Below are positions 18,288 to 21,981 of a stretch of 64,000 bases of DNA, piece after piece. Where the stretch lies: the NCBI RefSeq assembly GCF_963920485.1, contig NZ_OY986431.1, positions 1,612,001-1,676,000 of the forward strand, read 5' to 3'. The notes under the pieces are model-generated. The model was not told the DNA's origin. It searched no databases and was given only the letters and a program-made list of their open reading frames with translations. This DNA comes from Cyanobium usitatum str. Tous (GTDB lineage: Bacteria > Cyanobacteriota > Cyanobacteriia > PCC-6307 > Cyanobiaceae). The translations under genes were made by a program, and so were the position numbers. Every line of letters starts with the position of its first letter. Within the stretch, counting starts at the first letter, position 1.

Positions 18288-19723
18288 ACCGTCCTCGCCT
18301 GCTCCAGGCCAGCTGGCTGCCCCTGCTGCTGCTAACCAGCCTGGCTGCCCCCGCCGCCCTGAGCCAGACCTCACCCGTGCTGCGCCCCCAAACCGTGGCG
18401 CCCTTGAGCGGCGGGCTGGACCAGCTGCTGTTGATAAACGACAACAATCCCGAGCTGATTCGCGAGCCCGGGATCCTGCTTTCCACTTTCCCCGGCGCCG
18501 GTCGCGGCGTGCCTGCAGCCCACCTGGATGTGGCGCTAAGCGGCCGCTTCGACCTGTTCAGCCACCACGTCTATGCAGGCAAGCCGGAGAGCCTCGACTC
18601 CACCCTGTGGCTGGCGGTGCTGGCCGCTCCCCGCGGCCCCGGACCCGTAACCCTGAAGCTGCTGGCTGGCTCGACGGCCCTCTCCCAAGCGGTGGATCCC
18701 GGCCAGGCCGGCGCCCCCTTCCTGCCCCTGCCGGCCCTGATGGTGCAGGGCACCACCCCGGTGTGGGCCGGCCCCGGCAGCCGGGTGGCCACCGAATTGC
18801 TGGCCCGCCAGCGCAGCCCCGAGCTGCCCGCCAGCTGGACCTTGAGCCCTGGCGCTCCCACCACCCTGCTGGTGCTGCCCCTGCCGGTGCGGGGACTCGA
18901 TCCCCTGCTCAACGGCCGCAACCTGCAGCTGCGACTGGAGAGCTCGGGCCCCGTGAGCCTGGCCACCCTGGCGGCCTTCGGCCGGGGCAAGGAGCCGCCG
19001 GCCCCCTCCAGCTGGGCCGCCCTGCTGGAGGGGGGTCTCAGCCCCCGGGAGCACAGCCCCACCCCGCGGGGCAGCAAGGGGGGGATGGTGTATTCGCGGG
19101 TGAGTGGGGTGCAGGTGGGCAGCGTCTGGCGCAGCCGCCTTAGCGATCCGGGCAAAAACTGGTTGAGCGTGAGCCGGGCGCCGATCTCCTGGCCGATCAG
19201 CAACCTGGAGCGGGGCACCCTCGGCAGCGGCCAGGTGCAGACCGCCGAGCTTCAGGCCTTCTACCCAGGCACCGCCTGGGCCGCCCACGGCAACTACGGC
19301 GTCGAATACGACCTCAGCATCCCCCTGCGCAACGACACGACCAAACCGGTGTCCCTGCAGCTGGCCCTGGAATCGCCACTCAAAGGCGATGCCGCCATTG
19401 GTGGCCTGCGCTTCAAAAGTATTGGCGCCATGACTAGTGGAAGCCGGCCTGTGATGTTCCGCGGCACGGTGGAGGTGACGGGCCTTGATGGCGCCAGCCC
19501 GGGCAGCCGGCCTCTTGGCCGGCGCAGCTTCCATCTGGTGCAGCGGGCTGGTGAACCCAGCCCCGCCTTCGGCACCATCAGCCTGGCGCCAGGAGCCAGC
19601 CGCCAGCTGCAGGTGCGGCTGATCTATCCGGCCGATGCCACCCCGCCCCAGGTGCTCAGCCTGTTGCCCCTCCCAGAGCAGCCTGTGAAACAATCCGAAT
19701 CAACTCCAGCCAGCCGTCCGTGA
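18284..19723 (+). CDS. DUF3370 secreted protein
   Basis: Large predicted periplasmic or outer-surface protein, 479 residues, with a clear signal peptide (RRR-like positive start, hydrophobic LPLLLLTSLAAPAALS). It is rich in beta-strand-forming sequence throughout and matches the cyanobacterial DUF3370 family by the pattern VLRPQTVAPLSGGLDQLLLINDNN near the mature N-terminus. No catalytic motif is seen and no function is known to me. It overlaps the beta-lactamase-fold gene before it (ATGA) and chlI after it (GTGA), so it is part of a coupled run of genes. Confidence 0.8.
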   Translation: MNRPRLLQASWLPLLLLTSLAAPAALSQTSPVLRPQTVAPLSGGLDQLLLINDNNPELIREPGILLSTFPGAGRGVPAAHLDVALSGRFDLFSHHVYAGKPESLDSTLWLAVLAAPRGPGPVTLKLLAGSTALSQAVDPGQAGAPFLPLPALMVQGTTPVWAGPGSRVATELLARQRSPELPASWTLSPGAPTTLLVLPLPVRGLDPLLNGRNLQLRLESSGPVSLATLAAFGRGKEPPAPSSWAALLEGGLSPREHSPTPRGSKGGMVYSRVSGVQVGSVWRSRLSDPGKNWLSVSRAPISWPISNLERGTLGSGQVQTAELQAFYPGTAWAAHGNYGVEYDLSIPLRNDTTKPVSLQLALESPLKGDAAIGGLRFKSIGAMTSGSRPVMFRGTVEVTGLDGASPGSRPLGRRSFHLVQRAGEPSPAFGTISLAPGASRQLQVRLIYPADATPPQVLSLLPLPEQPVKQSESTPASRP

Positions 19724-20808
19724 CGCCAGTTCGCAAGCGCAGGGTCTTCCCCTTCACCGCGATCGTCGGGCAGGAGGAGATGAAGCTGGCCCTGCTGCTC
19801 AACGTGATCGATCCGCGCATTGGCGGCGTGATGATCATGGGCGACCGGGGCACCGGCAAATCGACCACGATCCGGGCCCTGGCCGACCTGCTGCCCGAAA
19901 TCGATGTGGTGGCGGGCGACCCCTACAACAGCTCCCCGGTTGACCCCGACCTGCAGAGCGCCGAGGTGCGCGCCCGCGCCGAGCAGGGAGAGGAGCTGCC
20001 GGTGGAGCCCCGCCAGGTGCCCATGGTCGACCTGCCCCTGGGCGCCACGGAAGATCGCCTCTGCGGCACGATCGACATCGAAAAAGCCCTGAGTGAGGGC
20101 GTGCGCGCCTTTGAGCCCGGCCTGCTGGCCAAGGCCAACCGCGGCCTGCTCTACGTGGATGAGGTAAACCTGCTGGACGACCACCTGGTGGACGTGCTGC
20201 TGGATTCAGCTGCCTCCGGCTGGAACACGGTTGAGCGCGAAGGCGTGAGCGTGCGCCACCCGGCCCGCTTCGTGCTGATCGGCTCCGGCAACCCGGAGGA
20301 GGGGGAGCTACGGCCCCAGCTGCTCGATCGCTTCGGCATGAGCGTGGAGGTGCGCACCGTGCGCGATCCAGAGCTGCGGGTGCAGGTGGTGGATCAGCGC
20401 ACCGCCTTCGACAGCGATCCAGACGGCTTCAACAACGCCGTGCAAACCACCCAGGACGCCCTGCAAGACCGGGTGATTGCGGCCCAGAAGCTACTCAATC
20501 AAGTAGCGATCGACGCCGACCTACGCATTCGCATCTCGGCGGTTTGCGGTGAGCTGGATGTGGATGGCCTGCGCGGCGACATCGTCACCAACCGGGCCGC
20601 CCGGGCCCTGGCGGCCTTCGAGGGTCGCACCGAGGTGGACGAAAACGACGTAGCCCGGGTGGTGGCCTGCTGCCTGCGCCACCGCCTGCGCAAGGACCCT
20701 CTCGAAACGATCGACACCGGCGACCGGGTGGTGAAGGTGTTCTGCAAGGTGTTCGAGCGCGCCGACAGCAGCGACCGCAGCGCCTTCGAACTGGCCCTGG
20801 CGGCCTAA
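19720..20808 (+). CDS. chlI: Magnesium chelatase ATPase subunit ChlI
   Basis: AAA+ subunit of magnesium chelatase, which inserts Mg into protoporphyrin IX at the first step committed to chlorophyll. The 362 residues include Walker A GDRGTGKST, Walker B LLYVDEVNLLDDHLVD, sensor region FVLIGSGNPEEGELRPQLLDRFG and a C-terminal helical lid. Length is normal. The start is GTG at 19720, overlapping the DUF3370 stop. chlD and chlH are not in the window. The gene is followed by the toxin-antitoxin promoter. Confidence 0.97.
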   Translation: MTPVRKRRVFPFTAIVGQEEMKLALLLNVIDPRIGGVMIMGDRGTGKSTTIRALADLLPEIDVVAGDPYNSSPVDPDLQSAEVRARAEQGEELPVEPRQVPMVDLPLGATEDRLCGTIDIEKALSEGVRAFEPGLLAKANRGLLYVDEVNLLDDHLVDVLLDSAASGWNTVEREGVSVRHPARFVLIGSGNPEEGELRPQLLDRFGMSVEVRTVRDPELRVQVVDQRTAFDSDPDGFNNAVQTTQDALQDRVIAAQKLLNQVAIDADLRIRISAVCGELDVDGLRGDIVTNRAARALAAFEGRTEVDENDVARVVACCLRHRLRKDPLETIDTGDRVVKVFCKVFERADSSDRSAFELALAA

Positions 20809-20831
20809 GGGCGCGCCAAACCAGCTCAGCA

Positions 20832-20860
20832 TTGATAACGGCATATGATGCCAATATCAA
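20832..20860 (+). promoter_or_regulatory. Palindromic promoter/operator of the toxin-antitoxin pair
   Basis: A 29-base interrupted palindrome: left arm TTGATAACGGCAT, centre ATG, right arm ATGCCAATATCAA, matching in 11 of 13 arm positions. The outer TTGATA (20832-20837) and TATCAA (20855-20860) also sit 17 bases apart and so could serve as -35 and -10 boxes. The start of the antitoxin is 25 bases downstream. This is the expected form for an operator bound by a ribbon-helix-helix antitoxin that represses its own promoter; binding is inferred. Confidence 0.65.
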
Positions 20861-20885
20861 TATTAACCGTTGGGGTGCGGGTCCA

Positions 20886-21104
20886 ATGCGCACGATCATC
20901 GATCTGCCCGATACCGATCGGGAACGGCTCGACAGCCTCTGCCGCCAGCGCGGCCTATCCCGGGCCGAAGGCCTGCGCCAGGCCCTGCGCAGCTGGCTAG
21001 ACCACCAGGGCGTTCAGCACCAGAGCGTCTTCGGGCTATGGCGCAACCGCCCAGAAGACTCCCTGAGCCTGGAACGGACCCTGCGCAGCGAATGGGAGCG
21101 CTGA
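20886..21104 (+). CDS. Ribbon-helix-helix antitoxin (VapB/CopG type)
   Basis: A 72-residue protein starting MRTIIDLPDTDRERLDSLCR, typical of MetJ/Arc/CopG ribbon-helix-helix DNA-binding antitoxins: one short beta strand (RTIIDL), two helices with GLSRAEGLRQALRSW, then a flexible acidic/basic tail that would wrap the toxin. The ATG at 20886 is preferred over an in-frame ATG at 20832, which lies inside the palindromic operator. It is one base from the toxin gene start. It should neutralise the PIN toxin and repress the pair. Confidence 0.85.
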   Translation: MRTIIDLPDTDRERLDSLCRQRGLSRAEGLRQALRSWLDHQGVQHQSVFGLWRNRPEDSLSLERTLRSEWER

Positions 21105-21105
21105 G

Positions 21106-21504
21106 GTGGCCGCTGGGATTGCGGCTGCAGGGCTGCTGCTCGACTCCAACATCCTGATCGACCTCTTACGCGGGGAAGCCCAGGCCCTCGCCTGGATCGA
21201 GGCCCACGGCGGGGCAACCTCGATCAGCGTGATCAGCTGGATGGAAATCCTGGTGGGCTGCCACGACGACGAAATGGGCGCCGTGGAACCCTGGCTGAGC
21301 AGCTTTCCCCGCCTGGAGCTGACCCAGTCCATCGCCCGGGAGGCGGTGGCCTGCCGCCGCAGCCTGGGCCTGAAAATCCCAGACGCCATCATCCTCGCCA
21401 CGGCGCGCTGCCATCGTCTGCAGCTGGTGACCCGCAACACCCGCGACTTCCCGGAATCCCTCGGCGGTGTGCAGGTTCCTTACCGACTCAGCCCCGAGGC
21501 CTGA
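21106..21504 (+). CDS. PIN-domain toxin, VapC type
   Basis: Ribonuclease toxin of the PIN fold, 132 residues from GTG at 21106. The four acidic metal-binding residues are visible: Asp13 in LLLDSNILIDLL, Glu47 in SWMEILVG, Asp93 in IPDAIILATA and Asp114 in TRNTRDF. VapC toxins cut tRNA or rRNA; the target here is unknown. The gene follows its antitoxin with one base between stop and start, the usual coupling. No mobile element flanks the pair, which sits between chlI and ruvC. Confidence 0.87.
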   Translation: MAAGIAAAGLLLDSNILIDLLRGEAQALAWIEAHGGATSISVISWMEILVGCHDDEMGAVEPWLSSFPRLELTQSIAREAVACRRSLGLKIPDAIILATARCHRLQLVTRNTRDFPESLGGVQVPYRLSPEA

Positions 21505-21507
21505 TCA

Positions 21508-21981
21508 ATGCGCATCCTCGGCATCGATCCCGGTCTTGCTCGCGTGGGCTATGGGGTGATCGAGGTGGAGGAGCGCCGCGGCGGCGCCCAGCAGCTGCTC
21601 GACTGCGGCATCATCCGCACCGAACCCGGCCGCAGTGAGGGGGAACGGATGGTGGAGATCGCCCGCGACCTGCGGGTACTGATCCGCACCTGGAAGCCCC
21701 AGCTGGCGGTGGTGGAGAAGTTTTTCTTCTACCGCTCCAGCACCACCATCGCCGTGGTGCAAGCCAGGGGCGTGCTGATGATGACCCTGGCCCGCTTTGG
21801 CGTGGCGGTGGTGGAGTATCCGCCGATGCAAATCAAGCAAGCCCTCACCGGCCATGGCCACGCCCAGAAAGATGAGGTGCTTGAAGCGGTGATGCGCGAG
21901 CTCAACCTCGACACCCCGCCCCGCCCCGATGACGCCGCCGATGCCCTAGCCGCCGCCCTCACCGGCTGGTTCCAGCGGTGA
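21508..21981 (+). CDS. ruvC: Holliday junction resolvase RuvC
   Basis: Endonuclease that cuts four-way junctions made in recombination. The 157 residues show the RNase-H-like motif [18 protein letters not shown] (Asp7), the Glu-bearing strand [13 protein letters not shown] and the C-terminal acidic pair in [13 protein letters not shown]. Length is normal. The start ATG comes 4 bases after the toxin stop, so ruvC may be read from the toxin-antitoxin promoter. It overlaps the next gene by 4 bases (GTGA). Confidence 0.96.

Follow-up and report, generated by a model that had tools for sequence, protein, structure and literature searches.

Two tandem 12-bp units upstream of a CopG-type vapBC pair of Cyanobium usitatum: a probable autoregulatory operator that overlaps the promoter

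The DNA targets of type II antitoxins are usually palindromes that overlap the promoter, according to the excerpted texts of two reports (PMC4803016, PMC5924515). For instance, the operator of the Escherichia coli YefM-YoeB system is described in the excerpt of the first report as two palindromes that lie 12 bp apart from centre to centre, one of them overlapping the -10 element (PMC4803016). FitAB (PDB 2bsq) pairs a ribbon-helix-helix (RHH) antitoxin with a PIN toxin, and it is described as a tetramer of heterodimers on inverted-repeat operator DNA. In cyanobacteria, repeats are also present in the promoters of the Synechocystis pairs VapBC10 and VapBC15, as the extracts of two reports state (PMC3834315, PMC5924515). 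In addition, a VapBC pair made of a CopG-family regulator and a ribonuclease VapC is available in PDB 7by2/7by3. Here, we compared these systems with a toxin-antitoxin locus of C. usitatum, which lies in a 64-kb stretch of DNA (hereafter the window, meaning that whole stretch).

The antitoxin gene (20886-21104, plus strand) encodes 72 amino acids with a CopG/RHH domain (Pfam RHH_1, PF01402, E = 4.8e-7), and the toxin gene (21106-21504, plus strand, GTG start) encodes 132 amino acids with a PIN domain (PF01850, E = 1.8e-15). Both domain matches exceed the Pfam cut-offs, and a single base separates the antitoxin stop from the toxin start. The VapBC of PDB 7by2/7by3 was matched by the antitoxin profile (E = 5.1e-12) and by the toxin, the latter at chain B, "Ribonuclease VapC" (E = 2.5e-27). 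The antitoxin profile also matched YiiF (PDB 2k5j, E = 1.3e-10). Furthermore, the acidic residues D13, E47, D93, and D114 could be read by eye in the toxin. Thus, the pair is a predicted type II toxin-antitoxin system of a known kind, consisting of a CopG/RHH VapB and a PIN VapC. Both proteins score below the curated NCBIfam cut-offs, which are annotation thresholds and no biological feature (25.6 against 80 bits for VapC, and 21.5 against 60 bits for the mycobacterial VapB), and the pair is a divergent branch relative to these models.

The N-terminus of the antitoxin reads MRTI. Among 37 aligned sequences, M and T are invariant, and R and I are conserved in at least 90%. The antitoxin monomer was modelled with AlphaFold at moderate quality (mean pLDDT 75, pTM 0.40); two RHH-type helices and two C-terminal helices are predicted, and the N-terminal strand is unformed. 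In a Foldseek search with this model, the top rows were CopG, VapB-type, and PutA RHH domains, none of them below E = 0.6, so that these predicted-structure matches are only supporting. An alternative start that extends the antitoxin upstream (TTG at 20832, 90 amino acids) was also considered. This extension was rejected because the distance from the operator to the ATG is 26, 27, or 28 nt within the clade of the window, which breaks the frame.

There are also clear differences from the described systems. FitAB shares the pairing of domains, but it is absent from the sequence matches of the window pair, and in Foldseek it was matched only weakly (FitA, E = 2.3). The YefM-YoeB operator has a similar two-palindrome layout, but it is served by the antitoxin YefM and has the core TGTACA, whereas the window operator has a 13-bp spacing and is of GACGTC type. 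The two Synechocystis pairs are cyanobacterial VapBC systems as well, but positive autoregulation from other sites is reported for them, and VapB10 is a COG2442 protein (excerpts of PMC3834315 and PMC5924515).

The 77-nt gap between chlI and the antitoxin gene (20809-20885) contains a palindrome. A preliminary description of this DNA had placed a 29-bp palindrome, TTGATAACGGCATATGATGCCAATATCAA, at 20832-20860, with arms matching in 11 of 13 positions and outer hexamers 17 bases apart, and our reading of the sequence agrees with it in coordinates, letters, arm match, and spacing. The palindrome widens by one matching pair on each side to 31 bp (20831-20861). It can be written as an inverted repeat without assigned strand, with 14-nt arms at 20831-20844 and 20848-20861 that are complementary in 12 of 14 positions and enclose a 3-nt loop. 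At up to three mismatches, the 29-mer is present in a single copy both in the window and in the whole genome of 2,656,680 bases (2.66 Mb). Counting inverted repeats whose 14-nt arms match in 12 or more positions and whose loops span 0-8 nt gave nine distinct places (23 overlapping entries) in the window, 20831-20861 among them. Repeats of such quality are thus not rare, and the bare palindrome is weak evidence. Its significance comes from the relatives, since a matrix made from distant homologues puts this site first in the window (see below).

To describe the site in the relatives, we searched 400 genomes of the family with the antitoxin and obtained 56 matches in 51 genomes. Fifty of these loci were read, and 45 were usable; the other five lack a start codon at the aligned first residue. 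Four loci from named records (Synechococcus sp. CS-1330, 8F6, and two MAGs) duplicate four of the 50. In the distant antitoxin homologues (about 50-70% identical), two 12-bp near-palindromes, GATGACGTCATC n GATGACGTCATC or variants, stand in tandem, mostly 3 nt ahead of the antitoxin start codon (26 of 33 distant loci). The window site has the same layout, GATAACGGCATA T GATGCCAATATC. Unit 1 (20834-20845, no strand assigned), the counterpart of the GATGACGTCATC unit, and unit 2 (20847-20858, no strand assigned) follow each other at a 13-bp period. In the window and five close relatives, the left arm and the greater part of the right one are invariant, including the block GCATTGATAACGGCATATGATG + ATATCAA. 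Meanwhile, the upstream flank varies, and the leader downstream of the operator keeps short pieces alone (ACCG, GGGG, CGGG).

A score of at least 17/24 against the tandem consensus was reached within 70 nt upstream of the start codon at 39 of the 45 loci (33 distant loci and 6 of the window's clade), and by 2 of 9000 base-shuffled upstream sequences. This test excludes chance, but it is not independent because the consensus came from the same loci, many of which are related (the 33 distant loci have 30 distinct sites). There was no clear site at six loci (L013, L014, L019, L039, L044, and L054), nor at four of the five loci set aside for a missing start codon. The antitoxins of L013 and L014 are 73-74% identical to that of the window and are the nearest to it outside its clade. 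In addition, the antitoxins of two loci look decayed, L045 (408-479, with an early stop) and L048 (whose aligned first residue is not a start codon), and both retain a good operator upstream.

We then used a held-out matrix, built from the 30 distinct sites of the distant loci with the window's clade left out. In the 64 kb, it ranked 20834-20858 first with 16.9 bits, the next place reaching 11.6, and a symmetric unit matrix gave 20.9 against 7.2. Furthermore, a search of the 400 family genomes for the consensus with up to three mismatches returned 17 sites in 15 genomes, and the reversed-pattern control returned none. Fifteen of the 17 sites lie at known antitoxin matches, as expected for a consensus derived from those. 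The remaining two, L066 and L071, had not been among those matches, and each lies directly before a truncated antitoxin that starts with MRTI or VRTI. All 17 sites therefore stand at this antitoxin, and the consensus was found at this tolerance nowhere else in the 400 genomes. The window site itself differs from the consensus at seven positions and is thus absent from that search; it is among the weaker sites, with a score of 17/24 and 21.1 bits where relatives reach up to 42.5. The palindromic site in the promoter region is therefore conserved along with the antitoxin, as two tandem units, and looking for the same palindrome upstream of related pairs, as the preliminary description proposed, gave a positive answer. 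Its assignment of the palindrome as operator of the toxin-antitoxin pair, judged from sequence comparison, is now strongly supported.

The window genome contains 19 PIN-domain matches in 2.66 Mb, 18 of them over the Pfam cut-off, and so carries many VapC-type genes. We considered an operator common to the other toxin-antitoxin pairs of this genome. This was rejected, since the loci of the other 18 PIN and 2 RHH matches, taken with flanks of about 1.5 kb on either side, gave nothing above 6.8 (against 21.1 at the window site).

Taken with the described systems, these results make it very likely that a type II VapBC operon is autoregulated at 20834-20858, where two operator units that overlap the predicted -10 element would mediate repression. 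The palindrome would very probably be the DNA switch through which the pair lowers its own transcription. We infer that two RHH VapB dimers would bind the two near-palindromic 12-bp units, which repeat at 13 bp. The dimers would probably act within a VapB-VapC complex, with the toxin as a putative co-repressor. The most likely -10 element, TATGAT (20844-20849, plus strand), lies in the palindrome centre and straddles the junction of the two units, so that bound units would cover it and exclude RNA polymerase. Once the antitoxin is degraded, transcription would rise. From the spacing of the -10 element alone, the approximate transcription start would be at 20855-20857 (plus strand).

The placement of the -10 element is based on the register of the relatives. 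In the distant group, TA occupies positions -3 and -2 relative to unit 1 at 27 of the 33 loci and completes a TANNNT with it (mostly TANGAT); the other six have no TANNNT there. The same register at unit 2 was found at none of the 33. In the window's clade (window included), the situation is reversed, with the TANNNT register at unit 1 in none of the six loci and at unit 2 in all six, as TATGAT. For comparison, the background rate of TA in the upstream flanks is 1.4%. TATGAT is also the sole TANNNT common to all six clade loci within 70 nt of the ATG. It arises because unit 1 ends in A at the six clade loci, whereas all 30 distinct distant sites have C, T, or G (mostly C) there. Thus, the putative -10 element of the distant relatives overlaps the beginning of unit 1, whereas that of the window's clade overlaps the beginning of unit 2, and unit 1 now lies largely upstream of it in the clade. 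Meanwhile, no conserved -35 element was found in the 30 bases upstream of unit 1 at the distant loci. This resembles the start-site map of Synechococcus elongatus, which in the excerpt of its report gives the -10 motif Ta-aaT and no -35 consensus (PMC3219970). Operator and core promoter may be modular and may have slid by exactly one repeat, and the self-repressing promoter may also set the RuvC level; we put this combined proposal forward tentatively, at somewhat less than even chance.

In the clade, the operator is followed by a G-rich leader of 26-28 nt before the start codon (20859-20885 in the window), where the distant relatives mostly have 3 nt. This leader is possibly a ribosome-binding site.

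The preliminary description had proposed a different promoter, the sigma-70 pair TTGATA-17-TATCAA. Its two hexamers form the outer arms of the palindrome, and promoter and operator would then be one and the same element. Both hexamers and the 17-nt spacer are present and invariant in the window and the five close relatives, but the palindrome explains this conservation equally well. In addition, TATCAA lacks the final T of a -10 hexamer, and a sigma-70 scan, which requires T at the last -10 position, reported no promoter-like site in 19700-21600. A TTG before or into unit 1 is also not kept at the distant loci, where positions -3 and -2 are mostly T and A; what is kept is the in-register TANNNT. 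The lack of a -35 consensus in the S. elongatus map, as excerpted, points the same way (PMC3219970). We thus regard this promoter as unlikely, and its placement was probably wrong by about 11 bp. The proposed overlap of operator and promoter stands, with TATGAT as the -10 element in place of the two hexamers.

The same operator might also serve activation of the operon by the antitoxin. A precedent exists in cyanobacteria, as two Synechocystis antitoxins, VapB10 and VapB15, are reported in the excerpted texts to activate their own promoters (PMC3834315, PMC5924515). However, VapB10, as described there, is a COG2442 protein and not an RHH protein (PMC3834315), and the repeat needed for VapB15 binding lies 17 bp upstream of the -35 element according to the excerpt (PMC5924515). 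The window site covers the putative -10 element and probably the start as well, which is the position of a repressor. Activation therefore seems quite improbable here.

The palindrome could alternatively act in RNA, as a terminator or attenuator hairpin after chlI or as a structure in the vapB mRNA leader. The 77-nt spacer that holds it folds better than its own shuffles (z = -3.15). However, the terminator scan reported no terminator-like site there, and homologous elements are also present at loci whose upstream region, by eye, does not resemble chlI. Within the clade, the outer symmetry, in which unit 1 is compared with the complement of unit 2, is kept in 77% of pairs and the symmetry within the units in 56%. 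Column shuffles gave no covariation in the outer or the inner pairing, and for the inner pairing of the distant loci the observed value even fell slightly under the shuffled ones. Covariation thus favours neither a single 25-bp palindrome nor two 12-bp ones, and the dimers may sit on the 12-bp units or across them. The paired columns show no covariation beyond column composition, and the letters are kept, as in a protein site. We consider an RNA hairpin very improbable. Finally, a functionless chance palindrome, for which the nine comparable repeats of the window could be quoted, is hardly credible in view of the count of 39 of 45 loci, the first rank under the held-out matrix, the consensus search in the 400 genomes, and the invariant block in the close relatives.

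As a predicted VapBC operator, the element is of an ordinary kind in a little-studied family, and the apparent register shift by one unit is its evolutionary twist. When 386 genomes drawn from the phylum were searched with the antitoxin profile, seven matched, six in the window's family (Cyanobiaceae) and one outside. Plasmid-borne relatives of the antitoxin, at 34-40% identity, were found in 32 records (Citrobacter, Rhizobium, Granulicella, and Candidatus Megaera). The operator letters were not found in the seven of these 32 records that were read; the upstream regions differ, are mostly AT-rich, and score 10-15/24, with the best (Rhizobium, L099) at a borderline 15/24. As far as the compared genomes and these seven plasmid records go, the putative operator code is seen solely in the window's family. 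No literature on this operator was found by title among the matches listed. The result gives a concrete, if predicted, operator code for a family of VapBC pairs, the closer members of which were found almost solely in Cyanobiaceae. It also provides a natural series of operator/promoter registers, which is useful for studies of toxin-antitoxin autoregulation.

The pair sits between chlI, the gene of magnesium chelatase ATPase subunit I (19720-20808, plus strand; TIGR02030, E = 2.6e-168), and ruvC (21508-21981, plus strand; Pfam RuvC, E = 1e-36), which begins 3 nt after the toxin gene. We found chlI upstream of ruvC in 34 of the 36 ruvC loci examined, which were taken among the matches listed and are thus mostly nearest relatives. 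In 27 of the 34, the gap is at most 31 nt, and in three loci stop and start overlap. Four of the 34 hold this vapBC (gap 692-720 nt). Since the gap is mostly so short, vapBC was probably inserted into a closely spaced gene pair. With vapBC between chlI and ruvC, the latter may depend on the predicted vapBC promoter, which would then possibly set the level of RuvC, the Holliday-junction resolvase. If it is true that this promoter drives ruvC, a toxin-antitoxin module controls a DNA-repair gene in these strains.

Other contents were also seen in this junction. One locus (L135) has 1.4 kb of other DNA between chlI and ruvC. Another (L122, genome G045) carries a different two-gene pair on the minus strand (1979-2727) that matches NTase_sub_bind and Polbeta/NTP_transf_2, and that we take to be HepT-MntA-like. 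The chlI-ruvC junction may thus be a docking place for toxin-antitoxin modules. A third locus (L132, the same place as L054, 403-615) holds a lone antitoxin in the chlI-ruvC junction, and no toxin was matched there. This antitoxin begins with MTTS instead of MRTI, and no operator was found, as expected if strand and operator co-evolve. In addition, a chlI-vapBC-ruvC stretch with partial toxin and ruvC matches was found in a genome of a different genus (L010, genome G148). The same contig carries a full-length ruvC about 18 kb away, which suggests that this chlI-vapBC-ruvC piece was imported.
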